A stretch of DNA of 64,000 bases from an uncultured Pseudomonadales bacterium (lineage in GTDB: Bacteria; Pseudomonadota; Gammaproteobacteria; Pseudomonadales; Azotimanducaceae). This document shows, one piece after another, positions 11,550 through 30,473 of the stretch. The stretch lies in NCBI GenBank assembly GCA_937775265.1, contig CALKBV010000011.1:62001-126000 (forward strand). Reading direction: 5' to 3'. Position 1 is the stretch's first letter. Each line of letters opens with the position of its first letter. The notes beneath the pieces were generated by a model. That model was not told the DNA's origin and searched no databases. It saw only the letters and a program-made list of their open reading frames with translations. A program made the position numbers and the translations under genes.

Positions 11550-11858
11550 TTGGATGACAGTGAGTTTCAGGAAATCGTAGATGACGAATTCGTCCGAATT
11601 GAAGATCGTGTGGATGAACTCGAACTTGACGTCGATATCGATGCTTCGGGTGGTGTGCTGACCTTCACGCTGGACAGTGGTTCCAGCATTATCCTGAGTC
11701 GACAGATTGCGAACCATGAAATCTGGGTTGCGGCAAAGTCAGGGGGTTTTCACCTGAAAAGAGCAGACGGCGGCTGGCACTGCGTTAATACAGACGAAAG
11801 TCTGGAACAGCTATTAAACCGGGTGTTTATGGACCAGGCAGGTGCATCACTGTTTTAG
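11550..11858 (+). CDS. cyaY: Bacterial frataxin CyaY
   Basis: A 102-residue iron-binding regulator of Fe-S cluster assembly that acts on IscS/IscU. It shows the acidic first helix (DDEFVRIEDRVDELELDVD), the beta-sheet core VLTFTLDSGSSIILSRQ, and the conserved segment HEIWVAAKSGGFHL. The start is TTG at 11550 with a GGAGG site 9 nt upstream; nearby ATGs are out of frame. It diverges from lptM. Its TAG stop codon is part of the 4-bp target duplication of the inverted-repeat element that follows directly. Confidence 0.95.
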   Translation: MDDSEFQEIVDDEFVRIEDRVDELELDVDIDASGGVLTFTLDSGSSIILSRQIANHEIWVAAKSGGFHLKRADGGWHCVNTDESLEQLLNRVFMDQAGASLF

Positions 11859-12005
11859 GGGACATCTGATCAAAGTCGGACTGTCGCATCATTTTTTTCG
11901 CGATGATTGCATTGAATCCGCACTTGAAACCCAACTTTCTGCGTGCGAGTTCGCCTTACCCTTAGAGGAAACCCTCGCAACAAAATGTAATTAATCAGAA
12001 GTTCC
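11859..12005. mobile_element. MITE-like element, copy 1 (147 bp)
   Basis: The ends GGGACATCTGATCAA and (reverse complement) GGAACTTCTGATTAA form an imperfect 15-bp terminal inverted repeat (12 of 15 match). TTAG flanks both sides (11855-11858 and 12006-12009), as a 4-bp target duplication. The interior is alignable with copy 2 at 26598-26752, including GCGTGCG-G-TCGCCTT. No transposase is encoded. A YTAR 4-bp target is the habit of the IS5 subgroup of IS5-family elements, so it may be a non-autonomous derivative. It fills almost all the space between convergent cyaY and argH. Confidence 0.75.
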
Positions 12006-12014
12006 TTAGAAGAG

Positions 12015-25311: not shown

Positions 25312-26577
25312 ATGAAATTTGGAATTTTCTATGAACACCAATTACCGAAGCCCTGGAAGGAAGGTCTAGAGCAGCAACTATTCCAGGATGCGCTGGACCA
25401 GGTAGAGCTTGCGGACAAGCTTGGCATTGACTACGCCTGGGAAGTTGAACACCACTTTTTGGAAGAGTATTCGCACTCGTCTTCGCCTGAGATATTTCTG
25501 GCCGCAGCGTCACAGCGAACAAAAAACATTCGCCTTGGCCATGGTATCAGGCAGGTAATCACCAACTACAACCACCCCGCTCGAACGGCAGAATGTATTG
25601 CGACACTGGATCTGGTTTCCAATGGGCGGGTTGAGTTTGGCACTGGTGAGTCATCGGCTATTTTGGAGCTTGGTGGCTTTGATATTCCTGTTGAATCAAA
25701 ACGTGAGCAGTACCTTGAAGCAGTTGAGCAAATCTGCAACATGCTGGCAATGGACCCTTATCCGGGATTTGAAGGCAAGTACTTTAGTATGCCGTGCCGA
25801 AACATTGTCCCTAAACCCGCGCAACGACCCCATCCACCACTCTGGGTTGCCTGCTCAAACAGGGAAACTATTAAAATGGCTGCAAGGCTGGGAATAGGCG
25901 CGCTGACCTTCGCTTTTGTTGATCCGTTGGAGGCCAAACACTGGGTTGATGAGTACTACAGCATTATCAAAAGCGATGAGTGTGTGCCGATTGGCCACAC
26001 TGTGAATGCCAATATCGCGATGGTGACGAGCTTTTCTCTGCATCAGGACAGAGAAGAAGCGATTAGCCGTGGATTGGAAGGGTTTGAGTTCTTCGGATAC
26101 GCGCTTGGCGCGTTGTACGGATTTGGCGAGCATAAACCAGGGAGAACTAACCTCTTTAAACAGTTCAGGGAGGCTCGTGAGAAACAGTTAGCGGAGATGC
26201 CTGTAGACATCACGGAATCTCTCACCGGTGCCAGGGGAGGAATCGGAACGCCTGATGACATGAGAGGCCACCTCAAGAAATTTGAGGAAGTCGGTGTGGA
26301 TCAGGTGACGTTTATTCAGCAGGCAGGTATGAATAAGCACGAACATATCTGCGAGTCACTGGAGCTCTTTGCCAGTGAAGTAATGCCAGAATTCAAGGCA
26401 AGAGAAGCTGAACGGGAAGCGAAGAAGGCCGAGGAACTGGCACCCTATATTGAAGCAGCGTTAGCGAGGAAGAAGTTCATGCCAATGCCGGACGACAAGG
26501 ATATTCCTGTGTTCCCGGCGCTTGGGCGAAGTATTGCTGAGGGTGAGCAGGAACCAGATAAGGAAGCCCAGGTGTAG
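25312..26577 (+). CDS. Luciferase-like (LLM class) flavin-dependent oxidoreductase
   Basis: A 421-residue TIM-barrel enzyme of the bacterial-luciferase superfamily, using FMNH2 or F420. Family landmarks are LADKLGIDYAWEVEHHF (residues 34-50), RLGHGIRQVITNYNHPAR, a TGESSAI loop and the GTPDDMRGHLKKFEEVG segment near residue 303. It is longer than the usual 330-380 residues owing to a charged tail. It starts at ATG after GGGAG and is the last gene of the TetR operon. A luciferase-like monooxygenase needs a flavin reductase; the Fre-like protein at 19621-20349 is a candidate. Confidence 0.85.
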   Translation: MKFGIFYEHQLPKPWKEGLEQQLFQDALDQVELADKLGIDYAWEVEHHFLEEYSHSSSPEIFLAAASQRTKNIRLGHGIRQVITNYNHPARTAECIATLDLVSNGRVEFGTGESSAILELGGFDIPVESKREQYLEAVEQICNMLAMDPYPGFEGKYFSMPCRNIVPKPAQRPHPPLWVACSNRETIKMAARLGIGALTFAFVDPLEAKHWVDEYYSIIKSDECVPIGHTVNANIAMVTSFSLHQDREEAISRGLEGFEFFGYALGALYGFGEHKPGRTNLFKQFREAREKQLAEMPVDITESLTGARGGIGTPDDMRGHLKKFEEVGVDQVTFIQQAGMNKHEHICESLELFASEVMPEFKAREAEREAKKAEELAPYIEAALARKKFMPMPDDKDIPVFPALGRSIAEGEQEPDKEAQV

Positions 26578-26597
26578 TTGTGCTGCTGGAAGTCTAG

Positions 26598-26752
26598 GGA
26601 ACATCTGATTAAAGTCGGAGTGCCGCATCACCTTTTTCGCGATGGCTGCATTGAACCCGTACTCGAAACCTCGCAAAATTAAGACCATTCGCGATTTTCT
26701 GCGTGCGGGTCCGCCTTGCCCTCACAAAAAAATGCAGTTAATCAGAAGTTCC
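26598..26752. mobile_element. MITE-like element, copy 2 (155 bp)
   Basis: The termini are GGAACATCTGATTAA and, read from the other end, GGAACTTCTGATTAA (14 of 15 identical). CTAG flanks both sides (26594-26597, 26753-26756). The right-hand CTAG contains the TAG stop of the ABC-F gene (26753-26755, minus strand). The interior matches copy 1. No coding capacity. This is the best-preserved copy. Confidence 0.8.
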
Positions 26753-28645
26753 CTAGTTAGATTCCAGTTCGGCGCTGACTTCGAGCCATTCGCCCTCCAT
26801 AGCTTCCAATTGTTCTTTGAGTTCCGTCTGGTCTCGAAGGAGTGATTGGAGGTCTACCTCCTGTTTTGCGTGGCCGTCACGACTTTTGTAGATAGCAGGG
26901 TCAGATAGCTGTTGCTCCACTTCTGCGAGTTTTCGTTGTAGCCGTTCCATTCTGTTATCAAGGGTATTCAGGCGCGTTTTCAGTTGCCGGACTTCTTTAC
27001 CTGGCCTCTTGGCTGTTGTTGGCGATACTGTTTCAGCTGCCAGATCTGTAGGCGACGCGTCTTTTTCCTTGCCGGGTAATACGCGGGTTCGATAGTCCGC
27101 GAGGTCCCCGGGAAAGATGCTGACGCAGCCGTCTTCAACCAGGAGAAATTGATCCACCGCGTTTGCCATGAGGTGCCGATCGTGTGATACAAGGATCAAA
27201 GCGCCGGCGAATGTCTGTAATGCGACGGTCAGTGCCTGGCGCATTTCAATATCAAGATGGTTTGTTGGTTCATCCATTAGCAGCAGGTTGGGCCTGGTCC
27301 AGGCGATTAGGGCAAGCGCAAGCCGGGCTTTCTCGCCGCCGGAAAAGGTCCCAACTGGTTCCAGTACTTTGTCTCCGTGGAAGTTAAATCCACCCAGGAA
27401 ATTTCGCGCCTCCTGCTCGCCTGGGACTGTTCCAAGGTTTCTTCCAAGTTCAAACAAGTGCTGCACTGCGCTGCTGGAAAGGTCCAGCTCATCAAGTTGG
27501 TGCTGTGAGAAGTAGGCTGTGTTGAGGTTAGTCCCCCCGGTCTCGGAACCACTTAATAACGGCAGTTCCATGTTCAATGTCTTGATCAGCGTGCTCTTTC
27601 CTGCACCATTAACCCCAAGTAACCCGTATCGATCACCGGGTAAGAAGCTGAGATTGACATTCTTTAGAACCGCGCTCTCGTATCCAAGGTTGGCATCTAC
27701 CAGGGTGAGCAATGGCGTCGATGCTTTTTCCTGTGCAGTTATTTCGAAGGAGAAGGGTGAGTCGATATGAGCCGGAGCAATCAGTTCCAATCGTTCCAGC
27801 GCTTTAATTCGACTCTGCGCCTGTCTTGCTTTAGTGGCTTTCGCCCGAAATCGCCTGACGAAATCCTGCATATGCGCGATCTCGCGCTGTTGTTTCTCAT
27901 AGCTGCTTTGCTGTAAGGCCAGCCGGGCTGCCTTGATCTTCTCAAAGGCGGAATAGTTGCCCGTAAACAGTTCAATTGTCTGATGATGAAGATAGACGAT
28001 GTGGTTGACGCATTCATCAAGGAACTCCCGGTCATGGGATATGAGTAACAGGGTTCCCTGGAAATTTTTGATCCAGTCGGATAGCCAGAGGATCGCATCA
28101 AGGTCGAGGTGGTTCGTCGGTTCGTCGAGTAACAACAGGTCGGAAGGGGTCATCAGGGTTTGCGCGAGATTCAGGCGAATTCTCCACCCCCCTGAAAAAC
28201 TGGAAAGTGGCCTTGTAAACTCCGGTTCCGAAAAACCAAGACCGACCATCAGTTGTTCTGCGCGTGCGCGGGCCGTGTATCCGTCAATTGTGTCTAATTG
28301 TTCATGCAGATCTGCAATTTTTTCGAAAGTCTCGTCGCGCTCGGACTGGGCAAGTTGCGCTGTGATCTCTACAAAGCGCCTGTCACCCGAAAGCACATAA
28401 TCGATCGCGGGTTGAGTACTACCCCTGACCTCCTGTGCCATATGCGAGATACGGGTTTCGGCCGGCAAGTCGATCTGGCCAACATCAGATTCCAGGGTCC
28501 CGAGAATGGCCTCGAAAAGGCTCGATTTACCACTGCCATTTGCGCCAATCAGCCCCGCTTTGTTACCGCGATGGATGGTGAAACTGGCGGCTGTAAAAAG
28601 AGGGTCTGGGCCCCGCCTTAGGGATACATTGGTTAGCGTTAACAT
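26753..28645 (-). CDS. ABC-F ATPase, YheS-like
   Basis: A 630-residue protein with two ABC cassettes and no membrane domain, the ABC-F architecture of ribosome-associated translation factors. Walker A motifs are GANGSGKSS (near residue 34) and GVNGAGKST (near 343); signatures FSGGWRIRLNLAQ and FSGGEKARLALAL; Walker B LLLLDEPTNHLD and LLLMDEPTNHLD. The linker between cassettes has KATKARQAQSRIKALERLE, as in E. coli YheS, and the C-terminus (about 540-630) is a coiled coil. It should act at the ribosome exit site, but its exact role is unknown. Its TAG stop lies in the duplication of the neighbouring inverted-repeat element. Confidence 0.9.
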   Translation of the reverse strand: MLTLTNVSLRRGPDPLFTAASFTIHRGNKAGLIGANGSGKSSLFEAILGTLESDVGQIDLPAETRISHMAQEVRGSTQPAIDYVLSGDRRFVEITAQLAQSERDETFEKIADLHEQLDTIDGYTARARAEQLMVGLGFSEPEFTRPLSSFSGGWRIRLNLAQTLMTPSDLLLLDEPTNHLDLDAILWLSDWIKNFQGTLLLISHDREFLDECVNHIVYLHHQTIELFTGNYSAFEKIKAARLALQQSSYEKQQREIAHMQDFVRRFRAKATKARQAQSRIKALERLELIAPAHIDSPFSFEITAQEKASTPLLTLVDANLGYESAVLKNVNLSFLPGDRYGLLGVNGAGKSTLIKTLNMELPLLSGSETGGTNLNTAYFSQHQLDELDLSSSAVQHLFELGRNLGTVPGEQEARNFLGGFNFHGDKVLEPVGTFSGGEKARLALALIAWTRPNLLLMDEPTNHLDIEMRQALTVALQTFAGALILVSHDRHLMANAVDQFLLVEDGCVSIFPGDLADYRTRVLPGKEKDASPTDLAAETVSPTTAKRPGKEVRQLKTRLNTLDNRMERLQRKLAEVEQQLSDPAIYKSRDGHAKQEVDLQSLLRDQTELKEQLEAMEGEWLEVSAELESN

Positions 28646-29695: not shown

Positions 29696-29740
29696 CAGTT
29701 CCTCATTCCTTGGCAGTTGGATCGTTTATGACGGCGCTAG

Positions 29741-29872
29741 TCAATCCCTGAGTAACGCCTTTTTCCTGCGACGTCTGCGTTTAACATGTGCTCACAAATT
29801 CAGAAATTTAAAGCGAATTGGTGATTTTACTCCGTGCGGGTTCGCCTTGTCCCCCCACAAAAGCCCTCTTAA
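29741..29872. mobile_element. MITE-like element, copy 3 (decayed)
   Basis: A degenerate relative of copies 1 and 2. The right half, CCGTGCGGGTTCGCCTTG followed by CCCACAAAA, is close to copy 2; the left half (CGCCTTTTTC onwards) aligns more loosely. Terminal repeats are eroded, the right one mostly lost. CTAG tetramers at 29737-29740 and 29873-29876 could be the old target duplication. Confidence 0.5.
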
Positions 29873-29888
29873 CTAGAGCTTGGCCTTT

Positions 29889-30473
29889 TTAATGAAGTTG
29901 TTTCCATTCATTACAAAACGCCATCAGTTCAGGGTAAAAAACTAAAAGGTCCTCCTGAAGACTGGGAAGTTGCTCCTCACAATGTGGATAGGCCTCTATA
30001 AGAGGGTTTGCGTGTTTTAACCTCTCTGAGAGATACGCGAGTGATCGTTCCAGGAATTCCAGCTGGCCATAGTGGGCCAATGAATTGTGTTCCTGCATTC
30101 GCGATGCGCTCTGGAATGCAGCATCGGTCAACGTGTCTTTGTGAGCTAACAATTTTTCAAGGGTGCTAGCGGAATAAGACTCAAGTGGCTCGTTGTAATA
30201 TCGAGGCCAGTTCTGTGCCAACAAGTGATCAAAAGCGATATCCGTGATGATGCCAGCGTATCGGCGGAATCTGGGATCAAATCGCTTGTAACTGTTTTTT
30301 ACTACCGGATGTGAATCGGTGTATTGGTCGATCGCCCGGTGGAGACGAATCCCTCGCTCGATTTCGGGGCTAAAGCGATTTTCCAGGCGCCCCTTAATAT
30401 AGTCACCAAGGAAGCCGCCAACCAACAGGCCGGTTTCTGGGCCTGCCAGGGCGAAGTGTGCCAGGTAATTCAA
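29889..30473 (-). CDS. acpH: Acyl-carrier-protein phosphodiesterase AcpH
   Basis: A 194-residue HD-like metal phosphodiesterase that removes the 4'-phosphopantetheine from ACP. The family start MNYLAHFALAG, then GGFLGDYIKG, GIRLHRAIDQYTDSHPVV and DIAFDHLLAQNWPRY give the His/Asp metal ligands. The start codon is TTG at 30473, which overlaps the gshA TGA by 4 bp (TTGA), so translation is coupled to gshA. Confidence 0.9.
   Translation of the reverse strand: MNYLAHFALAGPETGLLVGGFLGDYIKGRLENRFSPEIERGIRLHRAIDQYTDSHPVVKNSYKRFDPRFRRYAGIITDIAFDHLLAQNWPRYYNEPLESYSASTLEKLLAHKDTLTDAAFQSASRMQEHNSLAHYGQLEFLERSLAYLSERLKHANPLIEAYPHCEEQLPSLQEDLLVFYPELMAFCNEWKQLH

Follow-up and report, generated by a model that had tools for sequence, protein, structure and literature searches.

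Copies of a short, transposase-free element that duplicates YTAR target sites lie in excess at the 3' ends of genes, and the 155-bp copy in the window (the whole stretch of 64,000 nucleotides analysed) sits on the stop codon of an ABC-F gene. The account that we favour, with a probability of roughly 0.78, is that this is an IS5-type MITE that targets YTAR sites and is selectively lost from within genes, leaving the 3' ends occupied. The account is built on the element's ends, its 4-bp target duplication, an empty site, a transposase-bearing relative and the 3'-end excess, all of them observed. It provides a measured case of a YTAR-targeting element coexisting with compact genomes, in which duplication of a stop codon hides the insertion from the protein, and reserve stops are added by the terminal repeat. 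The copies in the window and their neighbouring genes are as follows.

11550-11858, plus strand: cyaY (frataxin-like) gene, with its stop in the left TTAG of the 147-bp copy (TIGR03421, E 5.6e-27, over cut-off)
11855-12009, no strand: second intact copy, TTAG + 147 bp + TTAG; the left TTAG contains the cyaY TAG stop
25312-26577, plus strand: luciferase-like monooxygenase gene, convergent neighbour of the ABC-F gene (PF00296, E 3.7e-45)
26594-26597, no strand: left target duplication CTAG; the luciferase-like gene stops (TAG) 16 nt before it
26598-26752, no strand: 155-bp element without transposase, best read as an IS5-type MITE (from sequence reading, arms and relatives)
26598-26612, plus strand: left terminal inverted repeat GGAACATCTGATTAA
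26738-26752, minus strand: right terminal inverted repeat GGAACTTCTGATTAA
26753-26756, no strand: right target duplication CTAG, of which 26753-26755 are the minus-strand TAG stop of the ABC-F gene
26753-28645, minus strand: ABC-F family ATPase gene, PRK10636-like (Pfam PF00005 twice, PF12848, PF16326)
About 29738-29883, no strand: third copy, degenerate and without intact ends (blastn 73% over 105 bp, E 2e-9)

Direct reading of 26594-26756 gives CTAG, the 155-bp element and CTAG, with ends identical at 14 of 15 positions, just as a preliminary description of this DNA had reported; that description also placed the ABC-F stop in the right CTAG, where the minus-strand reading frame 26753-28645 does terminate. 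The 19-nt arms, CTAG included, are 95% complementary. Five matches resembling the terminal inverted repeat (TIR) were found against 1.3 expected from dinucleotide shuffles, and none of 100 shuffles gave five. Neither the 155-bp nor the 147-bp copy contains an open reading frame of at least 80 codons, and a transposase gene is absent. The ABC-F gene matches NF007921 with an E value of 9.7e-203, yet remains under the cut-off of that profile. Two of the three copies in the window adjoin a stop codon, as previously noted (the TAG stops of the ABC-F gene and cyaY), and about 5 nt separate the degenerate copy from the TAA that ends a minus-strand reading frame, 29889-30473. The window's genome has five paired-end copies, three akin to the 155-bp element and two of a 142-bp type; four of the five are on stop codons, the exception being a copy on contig C5. 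An Rfam search of the window gave no match, nor did a plasmid search with the 142-bp type; among the viral contigs searched, one matched.

Relatives of the ABC-F locus within the genus reveal how the element arrived. The ortholog in genome G010 (L318) is element-free and uninterrupted and reads ...CTATTTAG ACTGCCCGCAGCACAACTACACC, its counterpart in the window being ...CTAACTAG, the element and CTAGACTTCCAGCAGCACAACTACACC; across the site G010 has TTAG ACTGCCCGCAGCAC. This implies that the element inserted precisely into a stop codon that was already there, duplicating 4 bp, and on such sequence comparison the target duplication at the ABC-F stop is real. In G005 the element is present at the same gene end, the gene-side TAG has become CAG and the frame closes at a TAA within the terminal repeat, which is thus in use as a stop; in G004 only a remnant of the element end is found. 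At one gene end, four genomes of the genus (L207, L219, L199 and L227) carry related but differing copies, which suggests repeated or nested insertion at a single stop codon.

The best reading of the window element is an ordinary IS5-type MITE. The published target of IS5 is YTAR, most commonly CTAG (PMC5493358, PMC10359306), and YTAR duplications flank most of 93 paired-end copies, with C at the first YTAR position in 68% of insertion sites against 41% of controls. Locus L389, whose host shares the order of the window's genome but belongs to a different family, holds a 1158-bp element with TTAG/TTAG duplications and the terminal repeat GGAACCTCTGATTAA (14/15 at its other end), encoding a 314-residue transposase (NF033581 IS5, E 6e-96; DDE_Tnp_1 and DUF772). 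It is this combination of the YTAR/CTAG target with ends common to an element bearing an IS5 transposase that leads to the assignment; the window copy has the YTAR duplication and the shared ends and is itself short and transposase-free. Of 151 genomes of the family, 34 contain the end GGAANNTCTGATTAA. A partner insertion sequence with a DDE_Tnp_1 transposase was found neither in the window's genome (G000, 77% complete) nor in the copy-rich G001 and G124, and a search of 18 genomes gave no ends matching the element near DDE_Tnp_1 genes.

Among known elements, the IS5 family (IS5 subgroup) shares with the window copy the 4-bp YTAR duplication, CTAG being commonest (PMC5493358, PMC10359306), and differs in that the window copy is 155 bp long and has no transposase. 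MITEPsy1 of Pseudomonas syringae pv. phaseolicola is similar in its outer ends, GGAAGGTCTGA... and GTATCCTCTGA..., and in its CTAG or YTAA duplication (PMC3189936). It differs, however, in that two of its six copies interrupt genes; it is also 100 nt long, and its 18-nt ends close in AAAAAGCC where the present element has TTAA, so that by-eye comparison of GGAACATCTGATTAA and the 155-bp length with the published table rejects membership. RUP, Correia and ERIC elements (PMC2229807) are likewise short, non-coding and mostly intergenic, with terminal repeats and stops in several frames, but their ends are unrelated, and RUP targets TA and is tied to IS630.

On the account that we favour, an IS5-family transposase would move the non-autonomous MITE in trans, attacking YTAR sites, with CTAG preferred, and duplicating the target. 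Insertions would fall widely over YTAR sites; copies within genes would be lost by selection, and those lying from the stop to about 30-60 nt past it would persist. Where the stop itself has the YTAR form, the duplication should restore it and leave the protein unchanged.

Is the location on stop codons more than a coincidence of spacing, as the preliminary description held? The genome-wide comparison that it proposed, of the fraction of copies with a stop in the duplication against the YTAR expectation, was run on two samples and gives an excess in both. For the family, stretches round about 120 places in 15 genomes were taken, several genomes in the analysis being incomplete and broken at repeats; paired ends were found and empty sites rebuilt by script, genes were called with a home-made dicodon model rather than curated, and orthologous insertions were counted once. 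The independent sample is G320, a genome from another family, of which about 1.15 Mb yielded 64 copies. The 67 non-redundant family insertions divide into 25 whose duplication includes an in-frame stop, 35 otherwise intergenic and seven within called genes, so that outside genes 25/60 have an in-frame stop, compared with 108/867 non-coding control YTAR sites (12.5%; p = 7e-8). For G320 the corresponding figures are 12/63 and 188/2596 (7.2%; p = 0.002), and stratification of both samples by genome and tetramer gives an odds ratio of 3.0 (p = 3e-7), supporting the earlier impression. Since missed genes inflate the controls, the comparison was rerun without the intergenic sites that fall in open frames of 60, 80 or 100 codons; the family odds ratio is then 3.8-4.8 (p at most 2e-4) and that for G320 about 2 (p 0.06-0.16). 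The enrichment varies by genome, with 0/12 stop insertions in G124.

The favoured unit is nevertheless the 3' zone, of which the stop is simply the most frequent YTAR site: within 30 nt, stops make up 108 of the 176 non-coding YTAR sites in the family. Per available non-coding YTAR site, the family insertion rate is 0.23 at the stop, 0.25 at 1-12 nt past it and 0.18 at 13-30 nt, falling to 0.02 at 31-60 nt, 0.01 at 61-250 nt and 0.03 beyond; for G320 the same classes give 0.06, 0.07, 0.05 and 0.16 (31-60 nt), then 0.01-0.03. A sequence-specific preference for stop codons, and TAG in particular, as the preliminary description had envisaged, would fit the stop counts (25/60 and 12/63, odds ratio 3) and the TAG:TAA ratio of 21:5 at hit stops against 56:53 in controls (p = 0.008). 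The rate per site at the stop is, however, equal to that over the next 30 nt, and the exact stop does not differ significantly from 1-60 nt downstream in the family (p = 0.12), the trend being reversed in G320 (12:21 against 188:205 controls). The TAG excess is explained by the CTAG-rich target known for IS5, and it fits a general preference for C/G at the YTAR ends. We therefore regard a preference for the stop codon itself as very improbable; of the earlier proposal of preference or selection for TAG-terminated ends, the TAG preference is not supported in that form, and selective removal explains much of the pattern. Apparent stop-codon targeting can thus be mostly a survival pattern of the 3' zone, which is a useful control for other claims about small repeats.

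What, then, confines copies to this zone? Insertions inside genes are strikingly rare, at 7/67 in the family compared with 1808/2675 control YTAR sites (p = 9e-22) and 1/64 in G320 compared with 2001/4597 (p = 1e-14), and four of the seven interior family insertions are no more than 40 nt away from where the gene ends. This near absence of interior copies, most of them close to the 3' end, is the signature of selection. Selection against gene disruption does not obviously account for everything by itself, since non-coding sites more than 30-60 nt past a stop are about 10 times emptier in the family, even those over 150 nt from any start; part of this emptiness may reflect genes missed by the caller. 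Sites distant from both starts and stops being empty, and the rate dropping sharply past 30 nt in the family and past 60 nt in G320, one might suppose that transposition is physically steered, before selection acts, to the 30-60 nt that follow a stop, the cue being the 3' end of a gene that is transcribed or translated, recognised through termination, supercoiling or local DNA structure. IS5 hotspots have indeed been linked to destabilised DNA (PMC5493358). Outside the YTAR tetramer itself, however, no base is preferred, and the peak lies at different positions in different genomes. Terminator association was rejected as a target cue, intrinsic terminators not being in excess (5/40 against 18/225, and 1/33 against 55/393), and no sign was seen of AT-richness or destabilisation as a cue, with AT content no higher at hit stops. 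Such directed insertion is unlikely in our estimation, though if true it would represent a safe-harbour mode of IS5-type transposition in these Gammaproteobacteria, extending beyond surviving copies. More doubtful still is retention of copies for a role as 3' hairpins in stabilising or terminating the mRNA of the upstream gene. Most transcripts fold strongly, with z of -2.8 to -9.5 relative to shuffled sequence, ERIC elements influence mRNA stability (PMC2229807) and species of the genus have orthologous copies in common; but long inverted ends fold by construction and can by themselves explain the strong folding, the minus strand of the 147-bp window copy is weak (z -1.6), and the copies point either way and accompany different genes from one genome to another.

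On the reading that we prefer, the insertions have a by-product. Translation that enters the element across YTAR and the terminal repeat meets a TGA in frame 0 and, in a second frame, a TAA that follows an in-frame TAR by five codons. Two of the three frames are closed in this way, and a gene that later loses its own stop, or has it cut away, can be capped by these codons. Besides the ABC-F end of G005, an example is the contig C5 copy in the window's genome, which removes the last codons of an rnhA-like gene (so labelled by eye from its C-terminal residues, without a profile test); this gene then ends at the TIR TGA. As to which duplication copy decays, the stop-free copy has decayed and the stop copy been kept in 4 against 0 of the non-redundant family cases and 0 against 1 in G320, counts too few to use, to which the G005 ortholog adds one decayed stop copy.

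At about position 4001 of L307, a copy appears by eye to lie in the loop of a terminator stem, with a T run after CCTCC...GGAGG. G320 contains about 300 GGAACCTCTGATTAA ends (at most one mismatch), mostly in copies of 212-213 bp, and would be a good host in which to study this class of MITE. Perfect 26-bp palindromes, each consisting of two overlapping terminal repeats, occur at G124:C4:21580-21605 (GGAAGGTCTGATTAATCAGACCTTCC), with several more in G124, and at G066:C93:5239-5264 (a GGAAGC variant); these are possibly solo-end remnants or a separate mini-repeat.
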